Position numbers and translations under genes: made by a program
Notes under the pieces: model-generated
The model's database searches: none
Seen by the model: only the letters and a program-made list of their open reading frames with translations
What the model was told of the DNA's origin: nothing
From: Tsukamurella sp. 8F
GTDB lineage: Bacteria; Actinomycetota; Actinomycetes; Mycobacteriales; Mycobacteriaceae
Reading direction: 5' to 3'
NCBI RefSeq assembly: GCF_029167375.1
Contig: NZ_JARFTP010000010.1
Span: 87,812-151,811 of the forward strand
DNA length: 64,000 nucleotides
Part shown: positions 13,194 to 18,378 of the stretch, one piece after another
Position numbering within the stretch: the stretch's first letter is position 1
How the letters are laid out: every line of letters starts with the position of its first letter

Positions 13194-14426
13194 TCAGCGC
13201 CGGGCGGCGGCTTCGATCACGTCGGCGCCCGTCGATGCGCCACCCGTCGCCAGGTACCCATCGGCGACGGCGCGAGCACCGGCCGTCATCGAGCCGGCGG
13301 CGCGCACGGCTGCCCGCAGCGCCCGCGGACCACGTCGCGGGTGCCGGGCGATCCGTGACGGCAGCCGGATTCCAGCGCGGGCCAGTTCTAGTCGGCGGGC
13401 GACCTCGAGCTGATCCCGGCCGAAGGGCACCGCCACCGTCGGTACACCACGCGCGAGGGCCTTCTGGGTGGCGCCCATACCGCCGTGTGTGACGGCAACC
13501 GACGCACGATCCAGGATCGAGCCGTGTGGGGCGAAGCGCACGACCGTCGCGTCGGGTGGAACGACGAGGTCTGATGGGACCCCCGCCGGCATGGTCGCGA
13601 CGACGTGCAGGCCGGTTCCCGCCATGGCCGCGAGCAGGTGCCGGACGAGTACCTCGTCCCGTTGCGGGTCGGACGACGTGGTGACCAGGACGATCGGGCG
13701 GTCGATCGCGCCCAGCCAAGGCGGCTGTGCTGTTGGCGGATCCCATTCGCACGCACCGAGATACACCAGGTTCGGGACATCGGGATGTGGGTATTCGAAA
13801 GGTTCTGCTGTGGCGACCAGCAGGACGGGCGGCCGACGATAGAAGTCGTCCGGGTCGGTCAGTGCGGGCAGCCCGACGGAGGTACGGGTCGCGTTGATCC
13901 GCGGGCCGGCGATCCGTCGGGCGAGCGCGTCCAGGGCCGCGCCGACGAGTACATCCCGTGCGCGACCGGAGATCCCGCGGGCGGGCGCGAGGCCCGGCCC
14001 GAACGGAGGCAGCCCCGGGGAGCGGATGGGGATCGGTGAGGCGGAGAAGCAGGCCCACGGCAGCCGGCACGCTTCGGCGCCTGCCATCGCTCCCCAGGCG
14101 TTCGCATCGACGACGAGGAGATCGGGCGAGTACGCAGCAACCGCCGCGTCGAGGTCGGGCGCCTCGAACACCGCGCGGCGGGCGAACATCTCCATGCCGT
14201 GAGCGAAGGCCTGCACAGGGTTTGTCGCAGATGCGTCATCGGAGGGCACGGATTCGATTCGCGGATCCAGCGCGGAGGCGTCCAGCCCGAAGGATGCGAG
14301 CGTGTGCACCTCCGAGGCGATGGTGCGGACGTGTACGACGTGCCCGCGGGCGCGTAGCTCGAGAAGTAGCGGCATCATCGGGTACAGATGCCCGCGGCCG
14401 ACCGCCGTGTATGCGAGAACCTTCAT
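13194..14426 (-). CDS. GT1-family (MGT-type) glycosyltransferase
   Basis: A 410-residue GT-B glycosyltransferase of family 1. The N-terminal acceptor domain begins with YTAVGRGHLYPMMPLL, and the C-terminal sugar-nucleotide site is marked by THGGMGATQKALARGVP followed by FGRDQLEVARR. Members glycosylate macrolides, sterols, flavonoids or lipids using UDP- or dTDP-sugars. It stands alone, convergent with the TetR gene (41-bp gap) and divergent from the Trp-rich protein gene. The acceptor is not predictable. Confidence 0.85.
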   Translation of the reverse strand: MKVLAYTAVGRGHLYPMMPLLLELRARGHVVHVRTIASEVHTLASFGLDASALDPRIESVPSDDASATNPVQAFAHGMEMFARRAVFEAPDLDAAVAAYSPDLLVVDANAWGAMAGAEACRLPWACFSASPIPIRSPGLPPFGPGLAPARGISGRARDVLVGAALDALARRIAGPRINATRTSVGLPALTDPDDFYRRPPVLLVATAEPFEYPHPDVPNLVYLGACEWDPPTAQPPWLGAIDRPIVLVTTSSDPQRDEVLVRHLLAAMAGTGLHVVATMPAGVPSDLVVPPDATVVRFAPHGSILDRASVAVTHGGMGATQKALARGVPTVAVPFGRDQLEVARRLELARAGIRLPSRIARHPRRGPRALRAAVRAAGSMTAGARAVADGYLATGGASTGADVIEAAARR

Positions 14427-14547: not shown

Positions 14548-14564
14548 CTTCAGGTGCCCTTCAG
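14548..14564 (+). promoter_or_regulatory. CTTCAG-N5-CTTCAG direct repeat (candidate response-regulator site)
   Basis: Two CTTCAG hexamers (14548-14553 and 14559-14564) lie 11 bp apart centre to centre, 22 bp before the Trp-rich gene. OmpR-family regulators bind as head-to-tail dimers to direct repeats with this spacing. The same repeat occurs before the exported-protein gene on the other side of the two-component genes. Confidence 0.6.
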
Positions 14565-14586
14565 ACTCGCCCGAGATGGTCTCAGT

Positions 14587-14910
14587 ATGAAGAAGATCAT
14601 CGCGGTGGCGGTAGCCACCACAGCAATAATGTTGGCACTCTTCGTGTTCGGTGACTCCGTCGCCAACGCGGCACCGCATTACACGCCAGGGTGGTGTTCA
14701 CCCGCGCAGTGGCATCCCGGCTGGGCGAGCCCGCCCGTGTGGCATGCCGGCTGGTGGGGACGGGGGGTCTGGCACCCGGCATGGTGGGACGGCCACAGCT
14801 GGCGTCCGGGTTGGTGGAGCCCGCCCGTGTGGCATGCGGGCTGGTGGAGCCCCGGTCGGTGGCACGCCGGTTGGTGGAGCCCCGGACGGTGCTACCCGGG
14901 CCACTGGTGA
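14587..14910 (+). CDS. Small exported Trp/His/Gly-rich repeat protein
   Basis: A 107-residue protein with a clean signal peptide (MKKIIAVAVATTAIML, hydrophobic to about residue 22, ANA-type cleavage site). The mature part of about 80 residues consists of degenerate repeats of the form W-(H/S)-(P/A)-GWW. It contains about 19 tryptophans, 8 histidines and only 2 cysteines, one near each end of the mature region. I do not recognise a family. The composition suggests binding of a flat ligand, a metal or a membrane/cell-wall surface. A CTTCAG direct repeat lies just upstream, a strong hairpin lies just downstream, and the next gene is a response regulator. The Shine-Dalgarno match is weak. Confidence 0.7.
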   Translation: MKKIIAVAVATTAIMLALFVFGDSVANAAPHYTPGWCSPAQWHPGWASPPVWHAGWWGRGVWHPAWWDGHSWRPGWWSPPVWHAGWWSPGRWHAGWWSPGRCYPGHW

Positions 14911-14922
14911 CCCTTCTCCCGT

Positions 14923-14950
14923 GCCCGGCCGGACTCACCTCCGGCCGGGC
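14923..14950 (+). terminator. Hairpin terminator after the Trp-rich gene
   Basis: GCCCGGCCGGA (14923-14933) pairs perfectly with TCCGGCCGGGC (14940-14950) around a 6-base loop, followed by GCTCTTT. It separates the small exported-protein gene from the response-regulator gene. Confidence 0.75.
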
Positions 14951-15007
14951 GCTCTTTGGCACAATCGCGGGCATGCCCTCGGCCGCCGAGATCGGAGCGC
15001 ACGCCTG

Positions 15008-15700
15008 ATGGCGCGCGCACGCGTTCTCGTGATCGAGGACTCGACCGCGATCCGCAGCGCACTCGAGGCCGCGCTGCACGACGCCGGCTACACCGCCGTC
15101 GGCCGCCCGGACGGTGGTGACCTGTCGGCCGATCTGAATGCCTTCCGTCCCGACGTGGTGCTGCTCGACGTCATGCTGCCGGGCCGCGACGGGTTCACCC
15201 TCCTGCGTGAGATCCGTCAGCACTGCGACGCGGGCGTCCTGATGGTGACGGCGCGCGACGGCTCGACGGATCGGGTGCGCGGCCTCACCGCCGGCGCCGA
15301 CGACTACATCCCCAAGCCCTTCGACCTCCCCGAGGTGATCGCACGCGTGGGCGCGGTCCTGCGCCGCACCGGCCGGATGGGCGCCACGGTCGAGGTGGGG
15401 GATCTCGTCGTCGATCCGGACGCGGGGGTCGCGATCCGCGCCGGCCACACGCTGTCACTGACCGCGACCGAGTTCCGGATGCTGTCCTACTTCGCGCAGT
15501 GCAGGGGCCGGGTCCTGTCGAAGACGCAGGTCCTGACCGCGGTGTGGGGCTACGAGGGGTTCGATCCGAACCTCGTCGAGGTGCACGTGAGCGCCTTGCG
15601 GAAGAAGCTGGAGCAGCACGGCCCCCGTCTCCTGCACACCGAGCGCGGGCTCGGCTACATCCTTCGGGCACCTCCCTCGGGGCGGACGATCACATCGTGA
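15008..15700 (+). CDS. OmpR-family response regulator
   Basis: A 230-residue two-component regulator. The receiver domain (about residues 1-120) has the acidic pocket near the N-terminus (VIEDS), the phospho-acceptor Asp54 in LLDVMLPG and the Lys in DDYIPKPF. The C-terminal winged helix (about 130-225) contains LSLTATEFRML, VSALRKKL and the wing RGLGYIL. The stop overlaps the kinase start as GTGA. The flanking genes at 14587 and 18298 share a CTTCAG direct repeat, making them the likely targets. Confidence 0.9.
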   Translation: MARARVLVIEDSTAIRSALEAALHDAGYTAVGRPDGGDLSADLNAFRPDVVLLDVMLPGRDGFTLLREIRQHCDAGVLMVTARDGSTDRVRGLTAGADDYIPKPFDLPEVIARVGAVLRRTGRMGATVEVGDLVVDPDAGVAIRAGHTLSLTATEFRMLSYFAQCRGRVLSKTQVLTAVWGYEGFDPNLVEVHVSALRKKLEQHGPRLLHTERGLGYILRAPPSGRTITS

Positions 15701-17031
15701 CGGCACTCCCGCGGCTCCTGACGGTCTCGCTCCGGGGCCGCGTCCTGGTGACCACACTCTCGGCGCTCGCACTCGCGCTGGTGATCGTCGTCGTGGTGGT
15801 GGCGGCGCTCTTCGAGTCCGTGGTGCACCGGGAGGTGAGCGAGGAGCTGCGGGCACGGGTCGGCTACGCCGAAACCCTCGCGCGCACGGTGGCGACGCCG
15901 CAGGAATTCGTCCGGCGGGTCGACGTCCGGCTCATCACCGCGCAGGTCACCATGCCCGACGGCGAGGTGATCGGCGAGCACAGGAGGTTGCGCGGCGAGC
16001 GTGAGGTGCAGACGCGCGACTTCGTACTGCACGGCGGCCGGCTCGACGGTGCCCGCGTCACCCTGACGGTCGACAGTCAGCCGCTGCAGGTCGTGAAGTC
16101 GCGGCTGCTCTGGGGCATGGTCGCGACCGCGCTCGCCACGCTGGCGGTGACGGGTCTTCTTCTCGCCGTTGCGGTGCGCCGTGCGCTCGCGCCGCTCGAT
16201 GCGATCACGCGCCTGGCCCGGGACACGGAGGCGGGCAACCGGGGCGGCCGGCTCCTGCCGGATCGCCCGGACACCGAGCTGGGACGGGCCGCGAACGCTT
16301 TCGATGACATGCTGGACTCGATCGAGAGCGCGGAATCCCATGCGCGCGAGGCGAACGACCGGGTCCGCCGGTTCGTCGCAGACGCCGCACACGAGCTGCG
16401 TACCCCGATCACGGGGATGCGCGCGATGGCACAGGCCCTGCTGCAGCGTTCGCAGGATACGGACGCCGCCGAACGCGAGCGGCTCAGCGTGATCCTGGTG
16501 CAGGAGTCGAACCGCGCCGGCCGCATCGTGGGCGACCTCGTCGACCTCGCCCGCATCGACGCGAGCATTCCGCTGGACCTCGACCTCGCCGAGGCCGACC
16601 TGTACGAGCTTGCTTCTGCGCAGGTGGAGCGAAGTCGGTTGGTGCATGCCGGGCTGGTACTCGAGCTGCGGGGCGGGGGCGCCGTGGCAATGGTGGATGC
16701 CGCGCGCGTCAGCCAGATCTTGGCGAACCTCGTCGACAACGCCTGCCAGGCCACGCCGGAGGGCGGACGAGTCGTCGTGACGGTGGGTGCGGCAGGGGAG
16801 ATGGCCGAGGTGCACGTCGTCGATACCGGGACCGGTATCCCCGCCGCGGATCGCGAGCGCGTCTTCGATCGACTGGTGCGCCTGGACGCGAGCCGCCGGA
16901 TCGGCGGAGCGGGATTGGGGCTCGCGATCGCTCGTGGGCTGGCGCGCGCCCACGGCGGGGATCTGACCTGCAACGAGCCTCCTGCCGGTTTCGCGACCGA
17001 CTTCCGGCTGGTCCTACCGATCAGGCGGTGA
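15697..17031 (+). CDS. Sensor histidine kinase
   Basis: A 444-residue membrane kinase paired with the upstream response regulator. It has TM1 at about residues 12-40, a short extracytoplasmic loop of about 90 residues, TM2 near 135-160, a HAMP segment, a HisKA domain with the phospho-acceptor His232 in DAAHELRTP, and a HATPase with N-box LVDNACQAT and G-box GAGLGLAIARGLA. A GTG start at 15697 overlaps the regulator stop; the longer frame upstream overlaps the regulator gene and is rejected. The small sensor loop gives no clue to the signal, though the exported Trp/His-rich neighbour suggests an envelope cue. Confidence 0.9.
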   Translation: MTALPRLLTVSLRGRVLVTTLSALALALVIVVVVVAALFESVVHREVSEELRARVGYAETLARTVATPQEFVRRVDVRLITAQVTMPDGEVIGEHRRLRGEREVQTRDFVLHGGRLDGARVTLTVDSQPLQVVKSRLLWGMVATALATLAVTGLLLAVAVRRALAPLDAITRLARDTEAGNRGGRLLPDRPDTELGRAANAFDDMLDSIESAESHAREANDRVRRFVADAAHELRTPITGMRAMAQALLQRSQDTDAAERERLSVILVQESNRAGRIVGDLVDLARIDASIPLDLDLAEADLYELASAQVERSRLVHAGLVLELRGGGAVAMVDAARVSQILANLVDNACQATPEGGRVVVTVGAAGEMAEVHVVDTGTGIPAADRERVFDRLVRLDASRRIGGAGLGLAIARGLARAHGGDLTCNEPPAGFATDFRLVLPIRR

Positions 17032-17493
17032 AGGCACCGTCGGAAACGGCTCCGTCGGGTTCCGCGGCGGGGGTGGTCCCGTCGGCGCAGGGGAGCGGAG
17101 CGCCCTGCTCAGTCCCCACCCCGCTGCGCAGACGGCGATGGTCTCGGCACAGACCGACACCACGCCGAGCGGCTCGAACCAGTCGCCTACGTCGTCGCCG
17201 AGCTCGGGAAAGGACATCGACCGCGTCGCGATGTAGCCCACGACGGCGAGGGAGCATGTCGTGAGTGCGGCGGCGTACACGGCCCCGGAGTCCACCCACA
17301 GCGCGGTCGCCGCGACGAGCCCGCATGCGGCGGTGAGCACGACGAATGCGATGCCCATGTAGGGCGCCTCGTCCAGGTGCGGCGCTATCACCGGGATGTG
17401 CGCTACGGCGGCCACGGCCGCCGCAGCCGCGAGCACCCAGCGGGCGCGGCTGCGGGTCTCGCTCCAGGCGAACGTCTCGAAGCCGGCAGCCAT
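17014..17493 (-). CDS. Four-helix integral membrane protein, unknown function
   Basis: A 159-residue hydrophobic protein with about four membrane segments and a proline-rich C-terminal tail (TGPPPPRNPTEPF). ATG 17493 begins one base after the stop of the upstream exported-protein gene (TGACATG), so the two are almost certainly co-translated. A longer reading from 17523 is possible. The 3' end overlaps the end of the kinase gene by 18 bp on the opposite strand. No family recognised. Confidence 0.7.
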   Translation of the reverse strand: MAAGFETFAWSETRSRARWVLAAAAAVAAVAHIPVIAPHLDEAPYMGIAFVVLTAACGLVAATALWVDSGAVYAAALTTCSLAVVGYIATRSMSFPELGDDVGDWFEPLGVVSVCAETIAVCAAGWGLSRALRSPAPTGPPPPRNPTEPFPTVPSPPDR

Positions 17494-17494
17494 G

Positions 17495-18298
17495 TCACGG
17501 TGTCCATTCCCGCGCGAACGCATGCGCCAGATCGTTTCCGGGCACGAAGAACACGTGCATCATCAGTGACGCTCCGCCGCTGCGGGAGTGATAGTGCCAC
17601 CGCGTGATCGGGCCGCCTGGGGTGGGTGGTGCCGCCGGGTACGACTCCGCGGCGGTGTACATGACGCCGATCAGCTTCCAGTGCCCGCCGGCCTGATACT
17701 CGTACATCAGGGTCTCGGGTGCGTTCGGGTCGAGTACCTTGCCGTCCTTGCGGAACTCGACATTCGCCACGTGCAGCATCGGCATCATCTTCGGTGTGGC
17801 ACCGGCGTCCACGCGCTTCAGGTGCTTCGCCAGTGCGGGGCGCTTCTTCTCGGCGCGCTTCAGTGCCGAGTCGAGGTCGTAGCCGGCCGCCTTGGCGGCG
17901 GTGACATCCGAATACTTCGCGGTGTCGGCCTCGGACTGCTGCAGCAGGTCCGCCGCCGCTGCGCGCTGCGCATCCGATGCGGCCGCCACGTCGGGCAGGT
18001 TGGGCATCGAGGCGGCGTCATGACCGTACTTGTGCGCCCAGCCCTTATGCGCTGCATCCAATTTCGTCTTGGTGTGTCGCTTCTTGTCCGCGGGCGCGGG
18101 CGAGGACATCTGCGAGGACATCGCCGCATCGGTCTCGTGCGACGACGATGCCAGCGCGATGCCGGCACCGGTAGCCCCGGCGGCACACAGTGTCAGGCCC
18201 GCTGCGGCGCACACGGCGACGATCCGCGTGCGGCGCCCCATGATCCTGCGCGGACGGTTCGGCGGCACAGGCGGTAACGGTTCGGTCGGGTGTGTCAT
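17495..18298 (-). CDS. Conserved exported or membrane-anchored protein, unknown function
   Basis: A 267-residue protein with a short cytoplasmic N-terminus (RRIMGRRTR), a hydrophobic anchor or signal at about residues 25-50, a Ser/Thr/Lys linker and a globular domain. The domain carries TAAKAAGYD, LMYEY, LIGVMY and a C-terminal PITRWHYH followed by SLMMHVFF. This order resembles a hypothetical actinobacterial family with a conserved W-H-x-H and LHVW core, where the histidines could bind metal. The start at 18298 has a GGAGG ribosome site. A CTTCAG direct repeat lies about 64 bp upstream, and the adjacent two-component system is the likely regulator. Confidence 0.7.
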   Translation of the reverse strand: MTHPTEPLPPVPPNRPRRIMGRRTRIVAVCAAAGLTLCAAGATGAGIALASSSHETDAAMSSQMSSPAPADKKRHTKTKLDAAHKGWAHKYGHDAASMPNLPDVAAASDAQRAAAADLLQQSEADTAKYSDVTAAKAAGYDLDSALKRAEKKRPALAKHLKRVDAGATPKMMPMLHVANVEFRKDGKVLDPNAPETLMYEYQAGGHWKLIGVMYTAAESYPAAPPTPGGPITRWHYHSRSGGASLMMHVFFVPGNDLAHAFAREWTP

Positions 18299-18361
18299 CG
18301 CGCCTCCTGGAGCATCGGTGCCACCCGATGCGGTGGCTCTCCCCATGGTCGGAAGCGGGTC

Positions 18362-18378
18362 TGAAGACGACCTGAAGT
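18362..18378 (-). promoter_or_regulatory. CTTCAG-N5-CTTCAG direct repeat (candidate response-regulator site)
   Basis: Read on the reverse strand, CTTCAG-GTCGT-CTTCAG is followed after five more bases by CTTCCG, giving three hexamers at 11-bp spacing upstream of the gene that starts at 18298. It is the same motif and phasing as at 14548-14564. Confidence 0.6.

Follow-up and report, generated by a model that had tools for sequence, protein, structure and literature searches.

A conserved CTTCAG direct repeat as the predicted operator of an uncharacterised two-component family of Tsukamurella and mycobacteria

Introduction

PhoP of Mycobacterium tuberculosis, the best-scoring solved relative (170.4 bits) of the response regulator analysed here, binds as a tandem dimer to the direct repeat TCACAGC-N4-TCACAGC, which has an 11-bp period (PMC4832192, excerpted text). 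In Corynebacterium glutamicum, the copper regulator CopR binds TGAAGATTT-n2-TGAAGATTT, apparently its sole site in that genome, and binding improves on phosphorylation (PMC3140484, excerpted text). Here we describe a locus in a 64,000-nucleotide (nt) stretch of the genome of Tsukamurella sp. 8F (contig NZ_JARFTP010000010.1, positions 87,812 to 151,811; hereinafter, the window), where the genes for an OmpR-type response regulator of 230 amino acids (aa; 15008–15700, plus strand) and a sensor histidine kinase of 444 aa (15697–17031, plus strand) lie between two exact copies of the direct repeat CTTCAG-N5-CTTCAG, the predicted operator of this system. The regulator consists of Receiver and Trans_reg_C domains, and the adjoining kinase gene encodes a HAMP-HisKA-HATPase_c protein, that is, the typical OmpR/PhoB architecture.

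The window operator shares the 11-bp phasing of the direct repeat with the PhoP site, whereas the half-sites differ (PMC4832192, in the part available). Among the six base-contacting residues of PhoP described in the same excerpt, N212 and E215 are kept in the window regulator, but V213, S216, Y217 and Y220 are replaced by L, V, H and A, respectively, and these four changes fit with an altered half-site. The regulons differ in size as well: about 2% of the genome is under PhoP/PhoR control (PMC3413638, abstract), compared with two sites in the window genome. With the site and four of the six base-contacting residues being different, the window regulator was not assigned to PhoP. The core of the CopR site, TGAAG-N6-TGAAG, is the reverse complement of the window core, with different outer half-site bases, and CopRS, like the window system, apparently has a single-locus regulon (PMC3140484, excerpted text). 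A core in common, seen between the sites, argues only weakly that the systems are related. No copper export or oxidase genes were detected in a scan of eight proteins at the locus, and membership in the CopRS/heavy-metal families was rejected, the scores being far below the cut-offs (regulator model TIGR01387, 161.1 of 279.2 bits; sensor model TIGR01386, 159.1 of 292.55 bits), so that the likeness provides a lead on the signal only. By E-value, the actinobacterial MtrAB system provided the best NCBIfam models for both the regulator and the kinase, but the scores are far short of the equivalog cut-offs (MtrA, 182.8 of 300 bits; MtrB, 168 of 450 bits), and membership in MtrAB was rejected as well. 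No description of this regulator family with a CTTCAG direct repeat was found in the open-access literature. Two M. tuberculosis regulators, TcrA (Rv0602c) and TrcR (Rv1033c), are possible leads on orthology.

Results

The first copy of the repeat (CTTCAGGTGCCCTTCAG, 14548–14564, plus strand) is located 5' of a gene encoding a Trp/His-rich repeat protein of 107 aa (14587–14910, plus strand), and the second copy (CTTCAGGTCGTCTTCAG, 18361–18377, minus strand) is located 5' of a gene encoding a 267-aa protein from an uncharacterised actinobacterial family (17495–18298, minus strand). Both proteins are predicted to be exported, judging by eye, rather than by a signal-peptide predictor, from hydrophobic or signal-like segments at their N termini, which in the 267-aa protein is the single hydrophobic segment. 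The gene for a 169-aa membrane protein (17014–17523, minus strand) lies 3' of the exported protein gene in all five aligned loci. A preliminary description of this DNA had pointed to a small Trp-rich exported protein and an exported 267-residue protein, each behind hexamers with 11-bp phasing, and to an OmpR-type regulator and a kinase between the two repeats; the gene order, the domains and the N-terminal segments agree with it, as does the position of the first repeat. The second pair is exact too, although it lies one base away from the reported 18362–18378. The third, degenerate copy included in that description fared differently: the hexamer CTTCCG is indeed present 11 bp beyond the second site, but the corresponding columns in the logo of the 71 exact sites from relatives are not CTTCAG, so that this copy was rejected and is probably a chance occurrence.

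In the assembly (4,680,862 bases; completeness 99.96), the exact pair is found twice, both times at this locus, compared with 0.13 occurrences expected from the hexamer density in the window and with a single match to the reversed-pattern control. The genome-wide search that the preliminary description had proposed thus yielded no exact pair beyond these two. The composite CTTCAG-N5-CTTCAG-N10-NANNNT, searched for with up to one mismatch, returned the same two places, each without mismatches, and the control returned none. A two-mismatch search within the window alone was unremarkable (4 found against a mean of 1.69, with at least 4 in 4 of the 100 shuffles).

A profile built from six regulators (A5; orthologue threshold E≤1e-75) detected orthologues of the regulator in 108 of the 297 Mycobacterium genomes, at 114 places, with the weakest match at 8e-90 and the best other regulator at 2.5e-59 (profile A2, five genomes). 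We examined 113 mycobacterial loci (5 initial ones, 100 further ones and 8 covering the last 9 places), each spanning about 4.5 kb on either side of the regulator, or less at contig ends; the window brings the set to 114. The pair with at most one mismatch is present in 104 of the 113 mycobacterial loci (105 of 114 with the window), and the exact pair in 53 of the 114, so that the repeat persists near orthologous regulators, the point on which the preliminary description had made its proposal depend. The spacing is distinctive: in 100 regulator loci (875,342 bp), where 45 loci contain an exact site and 94 a site with at most one mismatch, exact pairs with spacers of 0 to 40 were found 71 times at N5, twice at N11, once each at N16 and N39 and not at all at the rest, and when one mismatch was allowed, there were 167 pairs at N5 versus 0–10 at each other spacing between 0 and 20. 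A control set of 12 loci (116,103 bp) from three of these genomes, taken out of 22 places listed for other OmpR-type regulators, contained no exact pair and one with a single mismatch. A selection of 30 whole genomes yielded 20 matches to the exact pattern, spread over 13 genomes, and 7 to the reversed control; seven of the 20 are at the regulator's own loci (two in the window, one in G1025, two in G926 and two in G786), and one more precedes the gene for the exported protein in G789.

Within the genus, the distribution of the regulator is patchy. None of the 12 congeneric genomes contains an orthologue-level match to the window regulator (best E-value 3.2e-54, compared with 6.7e-151 for the self-match), and the regulator is therefore sporadic in the genus, through either a gain here or losses elsewhere. 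Three congeners, G003, G005 and G006, have CTTCAGCGGTACTTCAG in common (L084 is among the congeneric loci), and G004 has CTTCAGCAGTACTTCAG, although all four lack the regulator; the sole one of the CTTCAGCGGTACTTCAG sites that was inspected, in G006, has no NANNNT at +10. The next closest regulators that the first search returned from other genera (L041 and L042, 48% identity) are accompanied neither by the exported protein nor by the repeat.

Alignment of the sites points to a fixed promoter geometry. Among 178 sites from 106 loci, NANNNT starts 10 nt past the second box in 127, and TANNNT in 85; at the other offsets from −2 to +22, NANNNT is found at most 9 times and TANNNT never, and at offset −3, where NANNNT occurs 80 times, its A belongs to the box. 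When 190 sites were clustered by their flanks (60% identity, boxes excluded), 127 clusters resulted, with NANNNT at +10 in 79 and in no more than 12 at any other offset. The predicted −10 elements of the window, GATGGT (14575–14580, plus strand) and GACCAT (18345–18350, minus strand), each lie 10 nt past their operators. Divergent site pairs within 120 bp of each other are 37–39 bp apart, start to start, in 35 of 42 cases. Many target frames, including that of the regulator itself behind GACAAT, begin 6–8 nt past the −10-like element, an arrangement suggestive of leaderless transcription and of autoregulation; the start codon of the Trp-rich gene in the window is 6 nt past GATGGT.

The genes behind the repeat, taken as similarity clusters of frames downstream of promoter-like sites that were seen at at least three sites, are diverse. 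The main cluster, with 60 sites, consists of single-pass proteins that have proline-rich tails (further such clusters with 5 and 4), followed by the regulator itself (18), PPE proteins (11), aquaporins (4), DUF1800 proteins (3), the 267-aa family (3) and two kinds of small exported proteins (3 and 3); several more clusters are out-of-frame readings of GC-rich DNA. When one representative of each was compared with Pfam, PPE, MIP, DUF1800 and DUF1501 were recognised, and the five other representatives scanned gave nothing. At three loci (L204, L206 and L198), the small exported proteins preceded by the operator end in aromatic/His-rich tails, loosely resembling the Trp/His repeats of the window protein. 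Because in the relatives the same module precedes differing genes, mostly those for membrane, exported or PPE proteins, it seems that the regulator and the operator have been kept while the controlled gene was exchanged between lineages.

The kinase, which a script located at 87 of the 114 regulator loci, varies in the proline content of its outer loop (delimited by a fixed cutting rule). The median is 0.20 in the 54 loci with a proline-rich target (at least 0.15 in 51 of these and 0.08–0.11 in the remaining three), and the value does not exceed 0.10 in any of the 17 loci where the target is of the PPE, DUF1800, aquaporin or 267-aa type. On the regulator tree, as few as two target switches and five loop switches account for this separation, and the association is therefore only suggestive. 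Thirteen of the locus stretches stop 205–711 nt past the stop codon of the regulator, within the kinase gene (L121, L123, L128, L129, L133, L137, L139, L145, L147, L154, L179, L187 and L197), perhaps due to a proline-rich loop that is hard to assemble.

The 267-aa family, for which no PDB fold match was obtained, is rare per genome, although 373 of 8000 scored candidates are homologues at E≤0.001: besides the window genome, there is one strong match (G112) among 397 genomes of the order, along with 19 that are weak and partial, two matches at E≤1e-15 in 396 genomes of the phylum, and representation in 4 of the 297 Mycobacterium genomes. In two Mycobacterium loci (L011 and L012), the genes for the regulator, the kinase, the exported protein and the membrane protein are arranged in a row, with an exact repeat 5' of the exported protein gene. 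In G789 (L048), an exact repeat on the opposite strand precedes this gene, the co-directional copy is degenerate and the regulator is on a different contig. A distant relative of the family is part of a longer frame in G487 (L040, 7477–9489) that is transcribed divergently from the genes of another OmpR-type regulator and its kinase, so that the exported family may have become linked to sensing systems on more than one occasion.

Several other features were noted in and around the locus. The stretch that separates the Trp-rich gene from the regulator contains a strong 13-bp hairpin (14921–14952, plus strand; −33.2 kcal/mol, z −4.8) that was not flagged by the terminator scan; our guess is that it could restrict read-through into the regulator, in a form of attenuation. 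Farther downstream (14960–15008), CACAAT is followed, 7 nt on, by an 11-codon frame with a stop codon that shares a base with the start codon of the regulator, possibly a leaderless upstream open reading frame. No Pfam or NCBIfam family matched the Trp/His-rich protein, for which one relative was found, and the match of the 169-aa membrane protein to DUF6069 is weak and below the cut-off. The adjoining gene on the minus strand (13194–14426) encodes an MGT-like glycosyltransferase of the macrolide family, with a score of 101.1 bits against an NCBIfam cut-off of 260.

Discussion

The two repeats sit at likely target promoters, are found nowhere else in the genome and persist near orthologous regulators; for these reasons, the earlier reading of the locus as a self-contained sensing system, with a membrane protein and two exported ones under its control, is supported in its main points. 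It needs to be amended in that, apart from dropping the third copy, the repeat appears to mark an entire regulator family, the controlled genes of which depend on the lineage. We consider it very probable that the regulator binds the twin CTTCAG as a head-to-tail dimer, activates the promoter and switches on the two flanking units. Under this scenario, a signal that is probably envelope-related would act through the kinase, and the phosphorylated regulator would likely bind CTTCAG-N5-CTTCAG, a direct repeat with a period of 11 bp, about one helical turn, as is characteristic of OmpR/PhoB-type operators. In the recognition helix, the N and L of the DxNLV motif are invariant in the 25 most common strings, which cover 101 of the 114 sequences. 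The bound regulator would then likely activate the promoter, the −10-like element of which starts 10 bp downstream, given that a tandem dimer upstream of this element would occupy the place of the −35 element. One unit turned on in this way would produce the Trp/His-rich protein for export, and its transcription might read through into the regulator and kinase genes; the other would produce the 267-aa exported protein together with its membrane partner.

Several observations weigh against this interpretation. Nine of the 114 loci (L074, L146, L151, L154, L175, L197, L200, L220 and L222) have neither an exact nor a one-mismatch site; among these, L146 and L175 contain a site with two mismatches that is followed by NANNNT at +10, and the stretches of L074, L151, L154 and L197 are cut short where their contigs end. 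The loci share descent, so that the counts are not independent. In the 30 chosen genomes, 12 of the 20 exact pairs are elsewhere in the genomes, and some of the nine that were inspected fall inside frames. NANNNT is missing at +10 in 51 of the 178 sites, and GATGGT and GACCAT in the window lack the first T of the most common −10-like form. A scan for a consensus −35/−10 promoter detected none, which says little because shuffles average 0.3. The exported/membrane pair is also found without an adjoining regulator and without the repeat (L039 and L047), the searches there having allowed up to one mismatch at L039 and up to two at L047 and at L014, a shorter version of the L039 place.

Among the alternatives, the one that survives best, although we deem it unlikely, is that the regulator binds the repeat but represses both units, with the signal lifting the repression. 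OmpR-type regulators are capable of repression, and the box ends 10 nt ahead of the −10-like element, near enough to obstruct RNA polymerase; however, the box is upstream of the −10 element and covers neither this element nor the start, and its location at the −35 place is the geometry of PhoB-type activation. The failure of the consensus scan to find a −35/−10 pair is weak evidence in the same direction. It is highly improbable that a different protein, such as a sigma factor or an unlinked regulator, reads the repeat, its adjacency to the two-component system being a matter of co-inheritance. Linkage, indeed, does not equal binding, and the exported family and the membrane protein occur without an adjoining regulator; nevertheless, the mycobacterial genes behind the repeat vary (PPE, DUF1800, aquaporin, proline-rich) and the regulator is the constant neighbour, the exact repeat is missing at the 12 control loci of other OmpR-type regulators, and the 11-bp period fits a tandem OmpR-type dimer. 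Chance sharing of the hexamer pair by two GC-rich promoters, with which the non-significant two-mismatch count in the window would agree, has a negligible probability and was rejected given the uniqueness of the pair in the genome and its conservation at a fixed spacing in 105 of the 114 loci.

Beyond the activation model, a more speculative possibility, which strikes us as rather doubtful, is a plug-in envelope sensor, in which the regulator and the module of box-N5-box-N10-(−10) would be fixed across mycobacteria and the window genus, and the surface protein would be swapped and act with the outer loop of the kinase as the sensor part. The link between the proline content of the kinase loop and the type of target is the observation behind this idea. 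The partners in the window would then be the Trp/His-repeat protein and the 267-aa exported family.

These comparisons point to an operator that has been conserved in a hitherto uncharacterised family of two-component systems. A regulator family represented in 108 of the 297 Mycobacterium genomes thereby gains a predicted operator and promoter geometry, from which a list of predicted targets follows that includes PPE proteins, membrane proteins rich in proline and small exported proteins. With a predicted regulon of just two sites, the window genome makes the idea easily testable. More generally, the family appears to be a natural case in which a single DNA-binding specificity has been retained while the controlled genes were exchanged.

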